Assembly: GCA_903822525.1 (NCBI GenBank)
Contig: CAIJPI010000180.1
Coordinates: forward strand, 1-46,370
DNA: 46,370 nt
From: an uncultured Bacteroidales bacterium
GTDB taxonomy: Bacteria > Bacteroidota > Bacteroidia > Bacteroidales > UBA4417
Reading direction: 5' to 3'
The notes under the pieces: generated by a model
What the model saw: only the letters and a program-made list of their open reading frames with translations
Told to the model about the DNA's origin: nothing
Database searches by the model: none
Program-made: the position numbers and the translations under genes
In this document: one piece after another, positions 8,583-30,190 of the stretch
How the letters are laid out: each line of letters opens with the position of its first letter
How positions within the stretch are numbered: the stretch's first letter is position 1

Positions 8583-8596
8583 TGGGTGGAGATTTT

Positions 8597-8645
8597 GGAT
8601 GTGTGATGTTGGATGTGTGATGTTGGATGTGTGATGTTGGATGTA
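8597..8645 (+). repeat. Heptamer tandem array, alternating GGATGTG/TGATGTT (7 units)
   Basis: GGATGTG TGATGTT GGATGTG TGATGTT GGATGTG TGATGTT GGATGTA read directly. Confidence 0.95.
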
Positions 8646-8687
8646 GAGGAGGGTTTGGTGTAAGTTAGCAGGTGATGCTTGATGTTT

Positions 8688-8717: not shown

Positions 8718-10319
8718 TCAATCTTCAGGGCTGAAAGGAAATACATCAGCATCGCTGCCTTTTGGATAATCAATTGAGAAATGCAGGCCGCGGCTTTCTT
8801 TGCGTTCGAGTGCCATTTTAATTATAAGGGTGGCAACTTTGATCAGGTTGCGTACTTCGCAGATCTTATCAATCAGTACTGAGCGTTTGTAAAGATCTTC
8901 GGTTTCACGCTCAAGTATATTGAGTCTGTCGGCAGCTCGTTTTAACCGCAGGTTCGATCGTACTATGCCTACATAATTGGTCATGATACCTTGCAATTCT
9001 CTCATGGTCTGGGTAATAAGTACCATTTCTTCGTTCATAACGGTTCCTTCAGCATTCCAGTCGGGGATTTCGCTGCAGAATTCAATATGTTTAAGTTGCT
9101 CAGAGGAGTTGATACAGGCACGGTGTGAGTATACAAGCGACTCAAGCAGCGAATTGCTGGCAAGACGGTTAGCGCCATGCAGCCCGGTGGAGGAACATTC
9201 GCCTGATGCATATAAGTTAATGATAGAGCTCCGGCCCCATTCATCTACCTTAATGCCACCGCAAACATAATGTGCAGCAGGTACGATTGGAATCATTTCT
9301 TTTGAAATATCAATACCGATGGTAAGGCATTTGGCATAAATGCCGGGGAAATGATTAATAAGGTCGTTGCGGTTCAGGTGGCGGCAGTCGAGGAACATAT
9401 GATCTTCGCCACTTATCTTTAATTCGTTGTCAATGGCCCGGGCAACAATATCACGAGGGGCAAGCGACTGGCGTTTGTCATATTTCTGCATGAATTCGTT
9501 GCCGTTAACATCTTTCAGTATTCCTCCAAAACCACGTAATGCCTCTGTAATCAGGAATGAGGGTTTCTCGGACGGATTGTACAAAGATGTTGGATGGAAC
9601 TGTATAAATTCCATTTTTTCGATGGTTCCCTTTGCACGGTATACCATGGCAATGCCGTCGCCGGTGGCTATCGGAGGGTTGGTAGTGGTAGCATATACAT
9701 TGCCGGCGCCTCCAGTGGCCATAAGGGTCACTTTTGCTAAGATGGTATCGATGCTGTTGTTGGCATGATTAAGAACATATGCGCCATAACAAGTTATATC
9801 AGGAGTACGGCGGTTAACATACATACCCAGGTGGTGCTGGGTTATGATTTCAACAGTAAAATGATTTTCGAGAATTTCTATATTTTGATTTTCGCGGGCC
9901 CTGGCCAGGAGAGTCTCTTCAATTTCAAGCCCTGTCTGGTCCTTATGGTGCAGTACGCGAAACTCGGAATGCCCGCCTTCTTTGGCAAGGTCGTATTTCC
10001 CTGATGCATTTTTATCAAAGCTTACACCTAATTCAATCAGTTCTTTGATTCGTTCCGGTGCTTCGGTGATAGTAATCCTTACAGCTTTTTCGTCGTTCAG
10101 GTCGTCACCTGCTATAAGCGTGTCCTGTATGTGTTTCTCGTAAGTATCGGGGGTATACATAACTGCAGCTATTCCGCCCTGGGCGTATTTTGTTGCAGTT
10201 TCTTCGGCCTTCTGTTTAGCTACAATACAAACTTTTCCATACTTAGCCGCTTTTAAGGCAAAACTCAGCCCGGCAATACCAGTTCCAATAACCAGGAAAT
10301 CAACTTGTCTTCTCATCAA
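8718..10319 (-). CDS. nadB: L-aspartate oxidase
   Basis: DFLVIGTGIAGLSFALKAAKYG, ATKYAQGGIAAV, EFIQFHPTSLY, SGECSSTGLHGANRLASNSLLESLVY. Confidence 0.95.
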   Translation of the reverse strand: MMRRQVDFLVIGTGIAGLSFALKAAKYGKVCIVAKQKAEETATKYAQGGIAAVMYTPDTYEKHIQDTLIAGDDLNDEKAVRITITEAPERIKELIELGVSFDKNASGKYDLAKEGGHSEFRVLHHKDQTGLEIEETLLARARENQNIEILENHFTVEIITQHHLGMYVNRRTPDITCYGAYVLNHANNSIDTILAKVTLMATGGAGNVYATTTNPPIATGDGIAMVYRAKGTIEKMEFIQFHPTSLYNPSEKPSFLITEALRGFGGILKDVNGNEFMQKYDKRQSLAPRDIVARAIDNELKISGEDHMFLDCRHLNRNDLINHFPGIYAKCLTIGIDISKEMIPIVPAAHYVCGGIKVDEWGRSSIINLYASGECSSTGLHGANRLASNSLLESLVYSHRACINSSEQLKHIEFCSEIPDWNAEGTVMNEEMVLITQTMRELQGIMTNYVGIVRSNLRLKRAADRLNILERETEDLYKRSVLIDKICEVRNLIKVATLIIKMALERKESRGLHFSIDYPKGSDADVFPFSPED

Positions 10320-10339: not shown

Positions 10340-10348
10340 GCAAAGGTA
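10340..10348 (-). promoter_or_regulatory. TAnnTTTG -7 box upstream of nadB
   Basis: Minus-strand TACCTTTGC about 20 nt before the nadB start. Confidence 0.4.
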
Positions 10349-10435
10349 GCAAATATTGTTGCCTTTATTGGGTTTTGCCTTACAACAAGAATAAAACCAG
10401 GTATTCCTTTCCTGGGGTAAAAATTAAATAAACTA

Positions 10436-10614
10436 GGTTCTGTTTTAGAATATTGTAGCAGGAATTGATTCTGATATATAGTGCATAGTGCTATGTGCTT
10501 AGCATCATTTATTTGTATTTATCAATCCTGTAGCTTGTCTGCAATATACTCTCTGAGCACTGAGCACTTTGCACTAAGCACAAATGATTTTCCACATTTT
10601 CCTTAAACAGAACC
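10436..10614. mobile_element. Candidate MITE-like non-autonomous element (179 bp)
   Basis: Terminal inverted repeats GGTTCTGTTT (10436-10445) / AAACAGAACC (10605-10614), flanked by 8-bp perfect direct repeats ATAAACTA (10428-10435 and 10615-10622); no long ORF; internal inverted heptamer arms. Confidence 0.65.
10481..10582. repeat. Imperfect inverted repeat built of GTGC-containing heptamers
   Basis: Left arm GTGCATAGTGCTATGTGCTTAG (10481-10502); right arm, reverse complemented, GTGCTTAGTGCAAAGTGCTCAG; about 18/22 matches. Confidence 0.75.
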
Positions 10615-10681
10615 ATAAACTATAACGGCATATTTTCGCCTTGATAAAATCAGGTTAGTTATACTCCTGCAAATTAGAATT

Positions 10682-11929
10682 TTATAATCCCAGTAATACC
10701 TTTACCGGCTCATTCCCCTCAAAAAGCATTCTCTCAGGGTTTTCGAGCAAATCCTTAACCATTACAAGGAAACTAACCGATTCGCGTCCATCAATAACAC
10801 GGTGATCGTACGATAAAGCAACATACATCATTGGAGCAATAATAACTTGTCCATTTACAGCAATTGGTCTTTCAATAATATTGTGCATGCCTAAAATTGC
10901 GCTTTGTGGCGGATTCAATATCGGGGTTGACATCATGGAACCGAATACTCCTCCATTAGTAATTGTAAAGGTTCCTCCTGTCATTTCTTCAAGTGTGATC
11001 TTATTATCGCGTGCTTTGCCTGCAAGTTCCTTAATCCGGAGTTCGATCTGCGACAGCGACAGCGATTCAGCATTCCGTATTACCGGTACCACTAGCCCTT
11101 TTGGTGCACTAACGGCAATTCCAACATCAGCATATTTATGAAAAACCAGTTCATCACCGTCAATCATAGCATTGACCTGGGGAAATTTTGCGAGGGCAAT
11201 TGTAATAGCTTTAGTGAAAAAGGACATGAAACCGATTCCTACTCCGAATTGTTCTTTAAATTTTTCGTTGTATTGTTTTTTCATGCCCATGATCCGGCCC
11301 ATATTCACCTCGTTGAAAGTGGTCAGCATAGCAGTCTCATTTTTAACCTGTACCAGTCGTTGTGCAAGTTTTATTCGCAGAGTCGACATTTTTTTGCGTT
11401 CTGTTTCACGCGACGATTCATAAAACACCGAATTATCCATGATCTGTGGGGCAGAATTGGTTTCCATACTTGCATTCAGCACATCCTGCCGGGTAATGCG
11501 CGCATGACCTAATTTTTCGAGAACTTCGCGACCGGTAAGCTGTTTTTCCTCCATAATCTTACGTGCGAGCGGAGTTATCTTTACTTCGTCAAGTGCAGCA
11601 GGAGTTTCAGCTTGTTTAATTTCCTCAGCAGCAGGCTTTAGTGCCTCCGATTTTTTAACAATGCTTTCAATAGCCATCCCTTCAGGGGCAATAGCGTCGC
11701 TGTTAATTTGTGCTATAACAGTTCCGATACTAACGGTTTCGCCGGCCTCGACCAGTATTGTGATAGCTCCTGCCATTTCTGCATTCACGGTAAGCGTGGC
11801 TTTGTCAGAATCTATTTCGGCAATTTCAGTATCTTTTGCCACGTAGTCGCCGGTTTTTACCAGCCAGTTTGCAATCTGAACTTCAGTAATCGATTCACCC
11901 GGTGTTGGAGCTTTTATTTCGATAATCAT
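10682..11929 (-). CDS. sucB: 2-oxoglutarate dehydrogenase E2 component (dihydrolipoyl succinyltransferase)
   Basis: N-terminal lipoyl domain with [15 protein letters not shown]3-binding region, catalytic [24 protein letters not shown] and [18 protein letters not shown]. Confidence 0.95.
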
Positions 11930-12025: not shown

Positions 12026-12044
12026 AAATTTACACTTTTCATTA

Positions 12045-12107
12045 AACATCCAACATCCGCAATCCGCGATCCGCAATCCGCAATCCGCAATCCGCAATCC
12101 GCAATCC
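12045..12107 (+). repeat. Heptamer tandem array GCAATCC (9 units)
   Basis: AACATCC AACATCC GCAATCC GCGATCC GCAATCCx5; 1 bp separates it from the sucA stop codon (12109-12111). Confidence 0.97.
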
Positions 12108-12108
12108 T

Positions 12109-14886
12109 CTATTTCTGCTCCACGCCTCTCCATTCCTTTGGAGCACAAAGCATCTTACAGGTAATATTGCGATTCTCGCAGGTACAGTCGCCAAAAGCCT
12201 TATCAAGAATTTTGGCTTGCCGCTGAACGTGCAGTTTTGGGGAGCCAGTTGCTGGGCTGCCGCTTTCGGGACGGGCAACGAGCAATAATTTCACGCCTTT
12301 AAAATGACGGAGTATAAACGACCACGCACCCATATTGGCTGGTTCCTCCTGCACCCACGCGAATTTGGTTGCGTTAGGGTATCTTTTCATGATATCCTGC
12401 AACTGAAGTAACGGGAAAGGATATAACTGTTCGACACGGACGAAAGCAATATTGTTATGTTCGCGCTTACGCCGTTCGGCAATGAGGTCGTAATAGACTT
12501 TCCCATTGCAGAAATTCACACGCGTAACTTCTGATGGATTGGCTGTATCATCATCAATTACTTCCTGGAATACTCCTTTTGAAAGGGCTGCTACAGGTGA
12601 AATGCATTCGGGATGCCTCAGCAGGCTTTTAGGAGTGAAAACAATCAGCGGTTTGCGGAAATCGCGGTGCACCTGCCGGCGAAGCAAATGAAAAAAGTTG
12701 GCAGGAGTGGTGCAGTTGGCAACCTGTATGTTATTATCGGCACACTGCTGCAGGAAGCGTTCCATGCGTGCACTGGAGTGTTCTGGCCCCTGGCCTTCGT
12801 AACCGTGTGGAAGAAGCATCACCAACGAGTTCATTACCCGCCATTTTTCCTCAGCGCTTACAATATACTGGTCAATAACAATCTGTGCTCCGTTTATAAA
12901 ATCACCGAACTGTGCTTCCCATATGGTAAGCGAAAATGGGGAGGCAAGCGAATATCCGTATTCAAAACCCAAAACACCATACTCTGAGAGAGGTGAATTG
13001 TAAATCTGGAACGGTGCCTGTTTGGCACTGATATTTTGCAACGGAGTGTATTTCTCTTCTGAATCTTCAATAGTAAGTACAGCATGCCGATGCGAAAAAG
13101 TGCCCCGTTCCGAATCCTGTCCGCTCACGCGTACCGGTATTCCCTCTTCGAGCAAGGATGCATAAGCAAGTAATTCACCCATTGCCCAGTCCACGGTGCC
13201 ATTATCAGTAAACGTGGTTCTGCGCTCGTCCATCAGGCGGACAAGTTTTTTGAAAAACGGCTTGCCTTGAGGTACCGCTGTAATCTTCTGCGTGAGTTCC
13301 AGTAGTTGGTTAAAAGGCACACTGGTGTCGACAGGCTGAATGAAATCCTCTTCTGTAGCCGGTCGTAATTTGTGCCATGAGTTTTCGAGGAAGGTGATAA
13401 CCCTGGCTTTTTCATCATCTTTCGAATCGAGCAATTCCTGTTCAAGCCCTGCTATGAATGATTTTTCAATGTCAGCAGCTTCTTCAGCTGTTATAGAACC
13501 CTGTTCCACCAGCTTATTTATATAAATAGTCCTCGGGTCATCATGTTTCTCAATGATCTTGTATAGGATTGGCTGAGTAAAACGAGGTTCATCCCCTTCG
13601 TTGTGTCCATATTTCCGGTAGCCCAGCAGGTCGATAAATACGTCCCTGTGAAACCTTTGGCGGTATTCAACAGCAAGTTCTACTGTATAAACAACAGCTT
13701 CAACATCATCAGCATTCACATGAAAGATAGGACATTGGGTTGTTTTGGCTACATCTGTGCAATACACCGAACTGCGGGCATCAAGGTAATTGGTTGTAAA
13801 GCCAATCTGGTTATTCACAACAAGGTGAATAGTGCCGCCGGTAGTGTACCCTTTTAACTCCGACATCTGAAGGGTTTCGTACACAACTCCCTGCCCGGCG
13901 ATTGAAGCATCGCCATGTATAATAATCGGCACTACTTGCTGGTTGTCATTTTGGTATTCGGCATCAATTTTACTGCGGGTGATACCTTCCACTATCGGGC
14001 CGACAGTTTCAAGATGCGAGGGGTTAGGAGCCAGCGAAAGCTGGAGTTTTCGGCCATCGGCGGTAGTACGCTCTGATGAGAAGCCCAGGTGGTATTTTAC
14101 ATCGCCCAGCAGGTATTCGTCTTCCAGAAGTTTGCCTTCAAATTCATTAAAAATATCCTGGTATGCTTTTCCAAGTGTGTTAGCCAACACGTTGAGCCTT
14201 CCGCGGTGGGGCATTCCGATTATAAATTCGGTGATACCGGTTTCAGCTCCTTTATTGATTATTGCATCAAGAGCAGGAATAAGGGCCTCGCAGCCTTCGA
14301 GCGAAAATCGTTTCTGCCCTATATATTTTTTATGAAGAAATTTTTCGAAGAGGACTGCACGGCTGAGCTCTTTCAGAATATGCAATTTCTTTTCACGGCC
14401 GAAAACGGGTGTGTTTTGCGTGTGCTCCATGCGTGCCATCAGCCATTCGTGGATTTCAGGACGACGGATATAGGCATATTCAACACCTACACTCTGGCAA
14501 TATGTTTTTTCGAGATGATCAATAATACTGTTAAGAGTGGCATCACCAATTCCAATCTCTCCCCCGGCTTTGAATACCTGGTCGCGATCCTCCTCGGTTA
14601 GGCCAAAATTGTCAATATGCAGGGTAGGAGAGTAGGTACGACGTGTCCTGACAGGGTTTGTCTTGGTAAACAGATGCCCTCTTTTACGGTATTCGTTAAT
14701 CAGATCAATAACCTTAAATTCGCCGGGTTTCATATCAGCCTGTGGCATTAGCTTTCCGCTGAATTCGAACCCCTGAAAAAACCTTCGCCAACCAGTTTCT
14801 ATGCTTTCTGGATTCTGCTTGTACTGCCGGTATAATTCTTCAATTGCATCACTATCGGCATTACTCAGAAAGGATAATTCATCCAT
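12109..14886 (-). CDS. sucA: 2-oxoglutarate dehydrogenase E1 component
   Basis: N-terminal SNADSDAIEELYRQYKQNPESIETGWRRFFQGFEF, GMPHRGRLNVLANTLGK, HGDASIAGQGVVYE, GYRKYGHNEGDEPRFTQP, GQDSERGTFSHRHAVL, EEPANMGAW. Confidence 0.96.
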   Translation of the reverse strand: MDELSFLSNADSDAIEELYRQYKQNPESIETGWRRFFQGFEFSGKLMPQADMKPGEFKVIDLINEYRKRGHLFTKTNPVRTRRTYSPTLHIDNFGLTEEDRDQVFKAGGEIGIGDATLNSIIDHLEKTYCQSVGVEYAYIRRPEIHEWLMARMEHTQNTPVFGREKKLHILKELSRAVLFEKFLHKKYIGQKRFSLEGCEALIPALDAIINKGAETGITEFIIGMPHRGRLNVLANTLGKAYQDIFNEFEGKLLEDEYLLGDVKYHLGFSSERTTADGRKLQLSLAPNPSHLETVGPIVEGITRSKIDAEYQNDNQQVVPIIIHGDASIAGQGVVYETLQMSELKGYTTGGTIHLVVNNQIGFTTNYLDARSSVYCTDVAKTTQCPIFHVNADDVEAVVYTVELAVEYRQRFHRDVFIDLLGYRKYGHNEGDEPRFTQPILYKIIEKHDDPRTIYINKLVEQGSITAEEAADIEKSFIAGLEQELLDSKDDEKARVITFLENSWHKLRPATEEDFIQPVDTSVPFNQLLELTQKITAVPQGKPFFKKLVRLMDERRTTFTDNGTVDWAMGELLAYASLLEEGIPVRVSGQDSERGTFSHRHAVLTIEDSEEKYTPLQNISAKQAPFQIYNSPLSEYGVLGFEYGYSLASPFSLTIWEAQFGDFINGAQIVIDQYIVSAEEKWRVMNSLVMLLPHGYEGQGPEHSSARMERFLQQCADNNIQVANCTTPANFFHLLRRQVHRDFRKPLIVFTPKSLLRHPECISPVAALSKGVFQEVIDDDTANPSEVTRVNFCNGKVYYDLIAERRKREHNNIAFVRVEQLYPFPLLQLQDIMKRYPNATKFAWVQEEPANMGAWSFILRHFKGVKLLLVARPESGSPATGSPKLHVQRQAKILDKAFGDCTCENRNITCKMLCAPKEWRGVEQK

Positions 14887-24420: not shown

Positions 24421-26271
24421 TTACTCAAAGATCTCAACTTTCAGGTTATCGATATAAACAGGGGCTTTTCCCTGAACCCAGAAATAGATTTTCACTGTAT
24501 CATCTTTTGACCGGACTTCCGGTGTGAGGTAATCTACCCGCATGGTATTCCATTGACCGGGTTTCATCGCATATTTCTTAAGTGAAATACTTGTCGCCCG
24601 GTAATTATATGGTTCTCCTTTGTGCTGGAATGTAATTACCAGCGATGCCATATTTTCCTGAACATCAGAAACAGGATAAATTTCTACTTCTGCGCGTAAC
24701 CAGGCATGATCTTTTGCAGTTATCTGGCTGTAAGGCATTTCCATGGCCGGCGAAAAGGGATGAGATTCATCAAGCCTGAGTGAAAATTTCCCGCCACTGA
24801 CTGTATCTTTACTTAAGGTCATTCCCTGGTCTTGTGTTTGTTCAAAGTCGAAAAAAGCAGCGGTTCGCCTGGTATAAGCTGTTTCATCTTTTAAAACCTC
24901 ATCAGCATCGGTCGGGCGCTCAATTAATAGCAGCTTACGGTCAGACTCAGTAAAAGATGTTTTTCCGAAAATGGCAAAATAATAAGCTTTTGTCATCCTG
25001 GTGCGCTCAATTACTCCATGTGCCCATTGCCAGGTCTGGAAAAGGTTCAGCATGAGCATCAGGGTAATTGTTGTATAAAATAGTACCCTGTAAATCTTAT
25101 TCCATGCCATAATCTGTTGGATCAGGTAACCCAAAGGGATAGCAAGCAGCACATACGACGAAAGCAATGCCCTCTGGCTGTAGCTGCCTCCTGCATACCA
25201 CCAGCAAGTCCAGCTCGAAACAATATACAGGTTTACCAGAAAATAGATCAGTAAGCTATAAAACAAAGGTTTGTTTTTTTTAAACAGACTGAAGAAACCT
25301 ATAATGGCGAAACCCATTACCGGAGTATAGATCAGCCACCCTTTCCGAAAGCTGAATAATACTTCCGAAATGTATGGCCGCTCAAAATCGAATCCTTCGC
25401 CTGCATTGTTGTAGCTATAAAAAAGCCAGTGCCCCGAACTGTACTTCCAGTAAATCAATTGAGGTAATCCTGCCACGAATGCTGTCAGAAGCAACAGAAT
25501 CACATGACGGTAGTTCGATTTTAACAAGCCGGTTTTGAATTGAAAACTCTTGCGATCGCTAATGCCCCACAATACAGGTATAATAATACAAACCAGTTCC
25601 GATGGTCTTACCAGTGCAGCAAGCCCCATGGCAAAACCGAGTCCTGAAGCATACCACAACCTGGGTTGCTCGTGCCAGCGGATCGTAAGCCAAACAATAA
25701 AAGTATATAATGTAAAAAGATAGTTATGGGAGAGGTAACCATCAAAGGCTGTAAGTTGAAAATAATTTGTGGCTAATACGATGATTATTAATAAAATGCC
25801 TGAAATTATTTCATCGAAAAACTTTAGTAGTATTTTCCTTAGCATGATAATGCCTGCTGCAGCATAAGCCAACCCGCTTAGAGCCCAGGCATACTGGTAA
25901 GGAATGGAAAATCCATCCGCTTTAAAGCCTGCAATCAGGCTGAAAATATGAGCAATAAAAAAAGCGGGGGCATTCAATACAGCCATACCCATGGAGTATT
26001 TCAGAACCCAGCCACCCGTTGGAATAGCCGTTGCCTGATAAAAGGTGGAAGTTGCCTGGTACTGATCAATCAGTTGATTAACCCATGCTATGTTGGTAAG
26101 CCTCAGGTCGTGATAAATAAAACTTGCTGGAAGGTAAAGATAATAGCCGAAAACATCCCACGACAGAATATTCACAGGCGGATACACAAACCTGAAGAAC
26201 ACTATGCCGGCAATCAGCAAAAAGCTGATCCAAAGGGAGGGCTCTTTTTTAAAGCTTGGGATGTAGTTCAT
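24421..26271 (-). CDS. Polytopic membrane protein (GT-C-like) with C-terminal beta-sandwich-like module
   Basis: N-terminal TM segments with SWDVFGYYLYLPASFIYHD; C-terminal VKIYFWVQGKAPVYIDNLKVEIFE. Confidence 0.65.
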   Translation of the reverse strand: MNYIPSFKKEPSLWISFLLIAGIVFFRFVYPPVNILSWDVFGYYLYLPASFIYHDLRLTNIAWVNQLIDQYQATSTFYQATAIPTGGWVLKYSMGMAVLNAPAFFIAHIFSLIAGFKADGFSIPYQYAWALSGLAYAAAGIIMLRKILLKFFDEIISGILLIIIVLATNYFQLTAFDGYLSHNYLFTLYTFIVWLTIRWHEQPRLWYASGLGFAMGLAALVRPSELVCIIIPVLWGISDRKSFQFKTGLLKSNYRHVILLLLTAFVAGLPQLIYWKYSSGHWLFYSYNNAGEGFDFERPYISEVLFSFRKGWLIYTPVMGFAIIGFFSLFKKNKPLFYSLLIYFLVNLYIVSSWTCWWYAGGSYSQRALLSSYVLLAIPLGYLIQQIMAWNKIYRVLFYTTITLMLMLNLFQTWQWAHGVIERTRMTKAYYFAIFGKTSFTESDRKLLLIERPTDADEVLKDETAYTRRTAAFFDFEQTQDQGMTLSKDTVSGGKFSLRLDESHPFSPAMEMPYSQITAKDHAWLRAEVEIYPVSDVQENMASLVITFQHKGEPYNYRATSISLKKYAMKPGQWNTMRVDYLTPEVRSKDDTVKIYFWVQGKAPVYIDNLKVEIFE

Positions 26272-26468
26272 TAATTTTTGTTGTTTTTATACAGGCAAAA
26301 ATATGCGACCAGTAAGATGGCGAAATGGAGATAAAGTGAAACCAAAAAAATCTCTGTCTTGTCTTCCTATTTGAATTCATATATTAACTGCCTTAAAATA
26401 TCAAGATTATAGAGCACATTAATAATCAGGGTATCTATCCACTATTAATCACCTATTCTGTCGGGTCA

Positions 26469-26559
26469 GCAATCCGCAATCCGCAATTCGCAATCCACAA
26501 TCCACAATCCGCAATCCGCAATCCACAATCCGCAATCCGAAATCCGAAATCCGCAATCA
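26469..26559 (+). repeat. Heptamer tandem array GCAATCC (13 units), overlapping the stop codon of 26557-28473
   Basis: GCAATCC GCAATCC GCAATTC GCAATCC ACAATCC ACAATCC GCAATCC GCAATCC ACAATCC GCAATCC GAAATCC GAAATCC GCAATCA; terminal TCA is the minus-strand TGA stop. Confidence 0.97.
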
Positions 26560-28473
26560 CTCATATCCCACCTGCATATATTCCAGCTTCAGGTCATCCA
26601 CAAATACCTTTTCCTTACCTGTATACCAGACATAGACCTTGTAATTACCATTCTCAGGAACATTACGGTCGACAACATCAGTCAGGGTGATATTGAACCA
26701 CTCGCCAGACGTATACGCAGTTTCAGAATCCTTTGCAATTATATACCTGTATACTTTATGATCGGGATCATCAATACTCAATACAAGAATAATCTGTCCC
26801 TTTTCAGATTGTGAGGGGTTCAGAATACGGGCTGTTGCCCTAAGCGAAATAGTGCCTGCACCGGGTAAATTCTGAAGCTTGGCTTCCGCCGCCGGACTGT
26901 ATGTGTTTAAAGCAGTCAGAAGTATCGATTGTTTGCCACTGCTTTGCTTTTCAGTTGAAACAAATTTCATCTGTTCCTCTGTCAAACTGCCTTCGAAGTC
27001 GTTGAGGTAGAATTGCTTGTATACAGCTGCAGTTGTATCTCTGGGCGCTTTCATAAATACAGCCAGCTTATATTTTGAGCCACCAATAATGGTGAAACTT
27101 TCGGAGGGGGTAAATATATTCAGAAGCCTGAGGTTGTTATTTTTCATTAGCGAATCAAAAGGCAGATGCCCTTCATACCCGGCAAACTGTGCATCCCATA
27201 TCAGCAATTCGCCTGGCTTAAGTAAGGAAGCCGGATCAATATTTTCGAATGTATAAACTTTAAAACATTTTTGCTGATCGAAAGGATCAATATCCATATA
27301 AAATGGGTACATCGGGTCTGTATACAACGCCTTGTGCTTGCTGTATGACGAGGTTTTAAGCCAGTCAGTAAGTTTCTCCATTACCGCAAAGTTAATACCT
27401 GTTTTCATAGGAATTTTGTCATAGGTAAATGGTTTGTAAACCACCAGTGTTATAATAAATGTTGCAAGTACGAAGTAAATAAATTTCATTGCTTTTGCCT
27501 TTTCCATTATCCATTCAAAACCTGCCAACACAATCAACGAACTTAACGGAAGCACACAGGCAATAAACCGGGTCGATCCCAACACACCCATCATGCCTTG
27601 CCACCATAGGATACTTTGTGCAAGGATAAATCCCAAAAAGGCTGGAATTATCAGAAAATACAAGGTCACATTTTTTATATCACTAAGGTTTTTAACCCCT
27701 GTTCTCAAATTGAATACTATGACGGAAAGTCCTGTGATAAACAGGATAAGAAGGGGGTAATTTAAAATGAAGATCATCTCCTTCATATAAAACCAGAACG
27801 ATCCGCTTCCATATAAATCGGAACCTGCACTGCTGTATGGCATCTTTGTAAAAAACCACAACGGATCATGATACATTGGCCATCCGGAAATACTGAATAG
27901 TATAAATCCTGTCAGCAGGAAGGGCAATGATTTATACTGTTTCATCCAGATAAGTGCCGGGATAAACAGTACGATATACATCATCCCTTCCGTCCGTGCA
28001 AATGGGATCAACGAAATTAGAATGGATGCCGCAAAAAAGCGTTTACTGATAAATAGGTATATGGATGCAATAAGCACCAGGCTGAATAAAATTTCGGTCA
28101 GACTGGTGAACATGATAAACAGATAAACCGGTGTAAACAGTGTGAAAATGATAGCCACCCATGCATGTCGGTATTCCAGCCGTTTAGCAATCAGGTATGC
28201 AAACCAGGCGCTCAGTAAGCCACACAGCAGGTTGAAAGCAATTGCTCCGGAATACCCAAACTGCGATAAGGGAGAAGCCAGAATGGTGAAAAGGGGTTTT
28301 CCCCAGTGATTCAGGAAAAAGGAAGGGTACTTAAAAGCATACCGTGCAATCTGATAATGCGTAATTGAATCAGTTTCTCCATCCACTCCGGTTGACAACC
28401 ATTGAACTCCAATCAAAGCAATAGTGCTGATAAGCAATACAATTGGAGCCAGGGTTTTATCAGTAAATTTCAT
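26557..28473 (-). CDS. GT-C-like polytopic membrane protein with C-terminal beta-sandwich-like module
   Basis: GETDSITHYQIARYAFKYPSFFLNHWGKPLFTILASPL (GT-C first loop pattern), many TM segments; C-terminal YKVYVWYTGKEKVFVDDLKLEYMQVGYE. Confidence 0.65.
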   Translation of the reverse strand: MKFTDKTLAPIVLLISTIALIGVQWLSTGVDGETDSITHYQIARYAFKYPSFFLNHWGKPLFTILASPLSQFGYSGAIAFNLLCGLLSAWFAYLIAKRLEYRHAWVAIIFTLFTPVYLFIMFTSLTEILFSLVLIASIYLFISKRFFAASILISLIPFARTEGMMYIVLFIPALIWMKQYKSLPFLLTGFILFSISGWPMYHDPLWFFTKMPYSSAGSDLYGSGSFWFYMKEMIFILNYPLLILFITGLSVIVFNLRTGVKNLSDIKNVTLYFLIIPAFLGFILAQSILWWQGMMGVLGSTRFIACVLPLSSLIVLAGFEWIMEKAKAMKFIYFVLATFIITLVVYKPFTYDKIPMKTGINFAVMEKLTDWLKTSSYSKHKALYTDPMYPFYMDIDPFDQQKCFKVYTFENIDPASLLKPGELLIWDAQFAGYEGHLPFDSLMKNNNLRLLNIFTPSESFTIIGGSKYKLAVFMKAPRDTTAAVYKQFYLNDFEGSLTEEQMKFVSTEKQSSGKQSILLTALNTYSPAAEAKLQNLPGAGTISLRATARILNPSQSEKGQIILVLSIDDPDHKVYRYIIAKDSETAYTSGEWFNITLTDVVDRNVPENGNYKVYVWYTGKEKVFVDDLKLEYMQVGYE

Positions 28474-28624: not shown

Positions 28625-29362
28625 CTAAGGTTTCTTCCCAACTGTAATAATTGAAAGTCCGAAAGAATTGAATATCAAACTGTCGATCAGTTTAAAGAGT
28701 ATCACCAGTTTATTGAATAACCTGATCTGACCCGAAGGGATGATTCTGTGATGCTGCATTTTACCTGATATAAACCAGCCTGCAATACCAGCAGCATTAA
28801 AATACCTGCTGTTTAAAACCTGAAAATGGCTCGAAATAAATAAAGCTTCAAGTCTCTTTCTGTTGTACCTCCTGTAATGCTCAAGTTCCTTGTCAAAGTC
28901 GTTATAAAGCCACTGGTATGCCGGAACCAGCACAATCAACTGTCCTCCAGGCTTTAACAGTTTATAGCAATTTAACAAGGCTGCTTGATCATCAAAAATA
29001 TGTTCCACAACATTAAGCGCAAAAACTGTATCAAAACAATTAAAATGCTCACTGAACTTCTGGTCAAACTCCGGGTCCACCAGGTTTATGTTTTCTATTC
29101 CTGATAAAGTTGGGCTTGCTGTAAATTTTTTGCGCAGCGATTCGCAATAGCCTTCACGAATATCTGAAAGAAGAATGCTTGCATTATCACGCAGAAAATA
29201 CTCTGAAATATTACCTACCCCGCTGCCTATCTCAAGAATTTTTCCTGTGCAAAAGGGTTTAATAGTATTATACATCCAGCTATTCAGATGATTAGCCAGT
29301 GCAATTGTGTTTAATGTATCCTCTCCTTCGGTATCAATAGGCTTAAAATCGAATTCTTTCAT
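28625..29362 (-). CDS. Class I SAM-dependent methyltransferase
   Basis: GKILEIGSGVGNISEYFL (motif I), FDTVFALNVVEHIFDD, LLKPGGQLIVLVPAYQWLYNDFDKELEHYRRYNRKRLEAL. Confidence 0.88.
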   Translation of the reverse strand: MKEFDFKPIDTEGEDTLNTIALANHLNSWMYNTIKPFCTGKILEIGSGVGNISEYFLRDNASILLSDIREGYCESLRKKFTASPTLSGIENINLVDPEFDQKFSEHFNCFDTVFALNVVEHIFDDQAALLNCYKLLKPGGQLIVLVPAYQWLYNDFDKELEHYRRYNRKRLEALFISSHFQVLNSRYFNAAGIAGWFISGKMQHHRIIPSGQIRLFNKLVILFKLIDSLIFNSFGLSIITVGKKP

Positions 29363-29455
29363 GTGTTATTATTTATTTCTTACGGGTCACATGGAATACG
29401 CCAGATTGATCATAATATCATCATAAGTTGGTGATTTCTTGCAATCATGGCTATT

Positions 29456-30190
29456 TCATCTGCTGAAGATATTGTATTTGATAATGCAGTATATCGCCCT
29501 GAATCCGTCTTTCCAGCTGATTTTTTTTCCTTCGGCATATGTGCGGCCATAGTAGGAAATGCCTGCTTCGTATATCCTGATATTGGGTATACGGCTTATT
29601 TTTGCCGTTACTTCAGGCTCAAAACCAAAACGGTTTTCTTTCAGATCGATGCTTTTTATAATTTCGGATTTGAAAAGTTTATAACAGGTTTCCATATCCG
29701 AAATATTAATGTTCGTAAGCAGGTTCGAAAGAAAAGTAAGAAACCTGTTGCCTATGGTATGGAAAAAGAATAGAACCCTGTGTGGTTTGCCTCCGACGAA
29801 CCTGCTTCCGTATACCACATCGGCAAATCCATCCAGAATAGGTTGTAACAAGAGATTAATCTCCCTGGGATCATATTCAAGGTCAGCATCCTGCACAATA
29901 ATAAAATCGCCGGTTGCAGAAAGTATACCTGTCCGGAGTGCTGCTCCTTTTCCCCTGTTAACCTCGTGTTTCTGGTAATTGATGATTATTTCCGGATTTT
30001 CGAGCCTGAAACGGAATAATTCTGCTTCCGTACCGTCTTTCGAAAAGTCATTCACCACTACCAATTCTTTCGTAATGCCTTGGATTAACTCTACGGAACT
30101 AACGCGTTGTAAGATATTGTATAAAGTTGCTTCTTCATTATAGGCAGGGATGATTACGGATAACTTCAGGTTGCTGTTCGGCTTTGTCAT
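29456..30190 (-). CDS. Glycosyltransferase family 2 (DPM1/polyprenyl-phosphate GT-like)
   Basis: LSVIIPAYNEEATLYNILQRV, VVVNDFSKDGTEAEL, NRGKGAALRTGILSATGDFIIVQDADLEYDPREI, DMETCYKLFKSEIIKSIDLKENRFGFEPEVTAKI. Confidence 0.92.
   Translation of the reverse strand: MTKPNSNLKLSVIIPAYNEEATLYNILQRVSSVELIQGITKELVVVNDFSKDGTEAELFRFRLENPEIIINYQKHEVNRGKGAALRTGILSATGDFIIVQDADLEYDPREINLLLQPILDGFADVVYGSRFVGGKPHRVLFFFHTIGNRFLTFLSNLLTNINISDMETCYKLFKSEIIKSIDLKENRFGFEPEVTAKISRIPNIRIYEAGISYYGRTYAEGKKISWKDGFRAIYCIIKYNIFSR

Follow-up and report, generated by a model that had tools for sequence, protein, structure and literature searches.

A recently active MITE with inverted heptad arrays between sucB and nadB of an uncultured Bacteroidales bacterium

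MITEs are generally short, have terminal inverted repeats but no transposase gene, duplicate a target of constant length and are present in many dispersed near-identical copies. Those of the IS6/IS26 group have 8-bp target duplications, termini that begin like GGTTCTGTT, lengths of 200-300 bp and no orf (PMC7986276). The BrickBuilt and PgRS/MITE464 elements of Porphyromonas gingivalis, which are MITEs of Bacteroidales, contain internal tandem repeats and occupy intergenic sites in 10-20 copies (PMC4596501). A MITE of Cardinium derived from an IS982-family element is described as a lineage-specific burst in a Bacteroidota genome (PMC9769881). Intergenic arrays of tandem 7-nt units such as TAACTGA have also been found in some Bacteroidetes (PMC4679880). 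The 179-bp element described here, which resembles each of these in the respects just listed, is located between sucB and nadB, both on the minus strand, in the window (the whole 46,370-nucleotide stretch that was analysed, from an uncultured Bacteroidales genome). Its features and those of the adjoining genes are as follows:

8718-10319, minus strand: nadB, with FAD_binding_2 and fumarate reductase C-terminal domains
10341-10348, minus strand: promoter-like box of nadB, TACCTTTG (Bacteroidota TAnnTTTG), between the MITE and nadB and outside the element
10425-10427, no strand: TAA, forming the left half of the palindromic target (TTA-N8-TAA in the family consensus)
10428-10435, no strand: left copy of the target duplication ATAAACTA, exact
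10436-10456, plus strand: left terminal inverted repeat GGTTCTGTTTTAGAATATTGT, matching the right end exactly over the first 10 bp and at 81% over 21 bp; almost unchanged across 26 aligned copies
10481-10501, plus strand: left heptad arm, three units (GTGCATA GTGCTAT GTGCTTA)
10502-10553, no strand: AT-rich conserved core between the arms
10554-10581, minus strand: right heptad arm, four units (GTGCTTA GTGCAAA GTGCTCA GTGCTCA in the minus-strand reading)
10594-10614, minus strand: right terminal inverted repeat GGTTCTGTTTAAGGAAAATGT
10615-10622, no strand: right copy of the target duplication ATAAACTA, exact
10623-10625, no strand: TAA, right half of the target palindrome
10682-11929, minus strand: sucB, with lipoyl and 2-oxoacid dehydrogenase acyltransferase domains

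The first-pass annotation described a non-coding MITE with 10-bp inverted ends (GGTTCTGTTT at 10436-10445, AAACAGAACC at 10605-10614) and an 8-bp target duplication, and its sequences and coordinates for both were exact. The terminal repeat extends beyond 10 bp as an imperfect 21-bp inverted repeat, the target frame in the window reads TAA-ATAAACTA-TAA, and the longest stop-free stretch within the element is 43 codons, consistent with the claimed absence of coding capacity.

The comparison of the 179 bp with the rest of the genome (4,109,518 bases in 354 contigs), which the first-pass annotation had proposed, located about 40 copies by BLAST at 80-98% identity, mostly over the full 179 positions; they span 165-193 bp, with one of 207 bp, in addition to fragments at contig ends. 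A search of the genome for the pattern of the ends returned 39 forward and 35 reverse matches, while the reversed control pattern returned 0 and 1. The true copy number, roughly 40-49, is uncertain because several contigs terminate inside the element. An exact 8-bp target duplication borders 18 of the 25 complete copies for which both flanks are available, and one more copy matches at 7/8; when left flanks were paired with right flanks of different copies as a control, 8 bp was reached in 2/600 pairs. The duplicated octamer is 94% AT, compared with 62% in the flanks. The bases preferred to its left (T 15/18, T 12/18, A 17/18) and to its right (T 16/18, A 11/18, A 15/18) define a palindromic target, TTA-N8-TAA. 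Spread of the family must have been recent, since just 1-6 of the 165 columns that can be aligned depart from the consensus in 24 of the 26 complete copies; the other two, with 16-17 differences, constitute an older subgroup. Judged by open frames rather than annotated genes, none of the 24 testable insertion sites falls within a frame of at least 130 codons, as against 77% of sites drawn at random and 25% of those resembling the target, and the probability that target preference alone would place 24/24 outside such frames is about 0.001.

A search for an empty site gave none that could be aligned base by base, since congeners diverge in the sucB-nadB spacer, and the element was not found at any of 14 congeneric nadB loci. 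Of the conditions that the first-pass annotation had named as refuting its reading, two are excluded: a lack of other copies, and conservation of the region with the same flanks across species. Positions 10436-10614 are strongly established as a real, non-random MITE: the element is multicopy, with precise ends, 8-bp duplications, a palindromic target, recent amplification and mostly intergenic sites, so that copy number, target duplications, target motif and low divergence all back the original description. The best explanation of the locus as a whole, which we regard as nearly certain, is a recently mobile MITE with heptad arms that was inserted with an 8-bp stagger at TTA-N8-TAA. The responsible enzyme would cut AT-rich DNA with an 8-bp stagger centred in the palindrome, and repair of the staggered cut would produce the 8-bp direct repeats. 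The strand-transfer chemistry is probably of the DDE type, with the transposase presumably acting in trans.

What the first-pass annotation overlooked is that a degenerate heptamer, GTGCNNN, is repeated in tandem just inside each end, the two arrays being in inverted order and flanking a conserved core of roughly 52 bp. The number of clean units per copy ranges from 2 to 8 in the left arm and from 1 to 5 in the right arm. The copy length equals 4 modulo 7 in 23/26 copies, which differ from one another by whole 7-bp units; unit number in the arms changes much faster than the sequence elsewhere in the element, possibly through replication slippage. The arms can pair, and the folds are more stable than those of shuffled sequences (z of -2.6 for DNA and -3.7 for minus-strand RNA), as would be true of any inverted repeat. 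We think that the arms either serve as transposase-binding arrays in a sub-terminal position or are DNA prone to slippage that became trapped in a fold-back element. If they are transposase sites, changes in heptad copy number could allow the MITE to tune its own mobility.

Heptads are not confined to the MITE. In the window, 167 positions score as periodic for period 7, compared with at most 10 for each of the periods 5, 6 and 8-11, and tracts of period 7 were also the most numerous in a 0.91-Mb genome sample, although 19 of the 54 were runs of N. Free GTGCNNN arrays also occur commonly elsewhere in the genome; some, as at L152 and L154, are surrounded by decayed MITE-like sequence, and others are not. 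The finding of such arms in MITEs ties these genomes' puzzling intergenic arrays to transposons. Heptads of another motif (GGATGTT/ATCCGCA type) form three arrays in the window, within or next to gene ends, at 8587-8649, 12026-12125 and 26457-26576. The window's neighbouring minus-strand orfs at 24421-26271 and 26557-28473 encode 616 and 638 amino acids, respectively, without a Pfam match at 1e-5.

A sibling MITE family with ends GGTTCTACTRCGAATTTA, lengths of 225-286 bp and 8-bp duplications was identified in the 0.91-Mb sample and in the individual loci examined. Its arms consist of another inverted heptamer, GGAAGNC, with up to about 12 units in L113. Copies of the sibling family are located as follows:

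L331: 9954-10189
L328: 18835-19059
L356: 2718-2949 and 14109-14344
L002: 871-1095
L020: one locus
L113: 7096-7381
L416: one locus

The succession of end, heptad array, core, inverted heptad array and end is thus an architecture common to two families of one genome that have different heptamers. When the sample was scanned for terminal inverted repeats bordered by exact 8-bp duplications (13-bp ends with at least 9 matching, 80-450 bp), the only matches with GG termini were the element and two sibling-family copies, and no repeat longer than about 300 bp was common to different contigs of the sample. Two other repeats were noted. The first, of about 105 bp and 92-93% identical among its copies (window 29358-29459, L354:2131-2237, L397:2803-2909), occupies the gap between a glycosyltransferase gene and a methyltransferase gene. 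The second is a family whose copies are about 230 bp long, with termini ACTGTCTAAAT..TTTTTAGACAGT and CTGTCAGGCTGAGAAGCCTG further in; no heptads were seen in it, and its copies are located as follows:

L356: 1748-1975
L413: 534-763 and 2620-2853
L363: 5628-5851
L408: 3296-3511
L421: 4336-4564

The MITE is inserted upstream of the nadB box. The box motif GCAACAATATTTGCTACCTTTGCA and its surroundings are nearly identical in congener G005 (L093), where the MITE is absent; therefore the insertion did not separate nadB from its box. No TAnnTTTG box was found inside the element, which may or may not affect nadB expression. That the element owes its retention to a regulatory or RNA function for nadB, and is not a transposon copy, is very unlikely. 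Such a role might be suggested by the folding of its single strands, a property of inverted repeats in general, but copies with young target duplications are present at about 40 unrelated places, nothing in Rfam came near the threshold, and neither a promoter motif inside the element nor a counterpart at nadB in congeners was found.

The identity of the transposase that moved the MITE is a separate matter. IS6 elements have a 14-bp end consensus, GGNNCTGTTGCAAA, in which bases 10-14 are GCAAA. The ends GGTTCTGTTTTAGA and GGTTCTGTTTAAGG agree with this consensus at the first nine bases only (GGTTCTGTT). The assignment to IS6 in the first-pass annotation is not supported: it fits the element in these nine bases and in the 8-bp duplication but not in bases 10-14, and no IS6 transposase (DDE_Tnp_IS240, PF13610) was detected in the genome, a MAG that is about 93% complete; PF13610 scored above the cut-off in only 1/16 genomes of the genus. 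The one zinc-finger IS6-like gene there (G008, L116), considered as a partner, has no matching inverted ends. The duplication and GGTTCTGTT keep IS6 in consideration, though two defining features, the full terminus and the transposase, were not found. IS6 MITEs of 227 and 336 bp are on record, as are members of the family in Bacteroidetes (PMC7986276), but it is improbable that the element belongs to the IS6/IS26 family and was moved by a transposase of that kind through replicative (cointegrate) transposition.

An AT-rich 8-bp target duplication and ends starting with GG would also suit other families that duplicate 8 bp (ISL3, IS1595, IS1, IS256, IS66 or ISAs1 like), with the autonomous copy lost, present once or outside the MAG, and such an origin has a somewhat better than even chance of being correct. 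The many contigs that end inside the element indicate that repeats are poorly assembled; against this origin, DDE_Tnp_IS1595 (PF12762), DDE_Tnp_ISL3 (PF01610) and DDE_Tnp_IS1 (PF03400) have no match in the genome, and PF01610 is found in 1/16 genomes of the genus. The ISL3 gene, in G011, was rejected as a partner, having no such ends in the available sequence. A pattern search of the whole genome with up to one mismatch revealed no transposase gene bracketed by matching ends, and none was found in the 0.91-Mb sample or in the other element-carrying genomes that were searched, which are draft MAGs. For the ends at C42:29790 and C151:22364, no partner was seen in the 4.5 kb around each; at C57:10138 (L058) the left end of the MITE runs into unrelated DNA that has no transposase, probably through a deletion or as a chimera. 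The first-pass annotation had held that a lack of any IS with matching ends would count against a MITE; none was found, an outcome that is also compatible with a MITE if its transposase is missing, unbinned or divergent in its ends. Because at least six genomes have such ends and none was found to have an end-flanked transposase, one might propose a stand-alone transposase gene not flanked by these ends, as RAYT is for REPINs, with no autonomous copy in existence. This proposal is unlikely, considering that multicopy IS are typically lost from draft MAGs such as all of these and that the end patterns were searched with 0-2 mismatches only. Membership among REPIN/RAYT systems themselves, which have REP palindromes, a RAYT gene and no target duplication, was rejected on account of the clear 8-bp duplications. 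As all of the genomes are drafts, failure to find a transposase is weak evidence, and no family name is assigned to the MITE.

Among 99 genomes of the order, DNA matches were limited to the genome itself and three congeners with degenerate copies, in one of which (G003) a related core is visible. Diverged elements in other congeners (L115, L158, L161) have like ends, GTGC-like heptads and target duplications of 6-7/8, and another (L160) has ends, heptads and a possible 7-bp duplication. Outside the genus, Marinifilum (150 bp, ATTATAAT) and two Flavobacteriaceae MAGs (183 bp, AATTTATA; 223 bp, ATAAAATA) contain short elements without coding capacity that have GGTTSTGTTTTAGAA ends and are flanked by exact 8-bp duplications; their interiors are unrelated to that of the 179-bp MITE. 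Degenerate short repeats of the CTTTGTG/CTCTGTG type, roughly mirrored, were noted in same-ended elements of a Flavobacteriaceae MAG (L213, L219, L221, L223) and Marinifilum (L205). Viral contigs had no match to the 21-nt ends; looser 17-nt patterns, serving as a negative control, matched more than 100 viral contigs, none with an inverted partner and a duplication of at least 6/8. The element and its 30-nt consensus end gave chance-level matches only in a plasmid collection, and no IS or MITE was among the papers listed by a literature search for the terminal sequence. It is doubtful that all of these elements belong to one class of MITEs that spans the Bacteroidota, with GGTTCT-type ends and TTA-N8-TAA as its target. 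In such a class, paired inverted heptad arrays would be functional, fast-changing docking sites for a stand-alone or undescribed transposase, and free arrays would have been seeded by the elements.

The element is a real, recently active MITE. It shows cleanly how a MITE has lately spread in a genus of uncultured Bacteroidales, at a target palindrome that could be defined, and its unusual architecture, which recurs, lifts it slightly above the routine. It differs from the IS6/IS26 MITEs (PMC7986276) in bases 10-14, in a genome where no IS6 transposase was detected, in its TTA-N8-TAA palindromic target and in its heptad arms. BrickBuilt and PgRS/MITE464 (PMC4596501) have a single internal minisatellite of 23 or 41 nt, IS5-like ends and irregular target duplications, whereas the present element has two inverted arrays of 7-nt units, other ends and regular 8-bp duplications. 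For the Cardinium MITE the parental IS is known and present, and the abstract mentions no heptad arms (PMC9769881). The TAACTGA-type arrays consist of a fixed heptamer and are not tied to a transposon (PMC4679880), whereas here only GTGC is fixed and the arrays are found both inverted inside a MITE and free in the genome.
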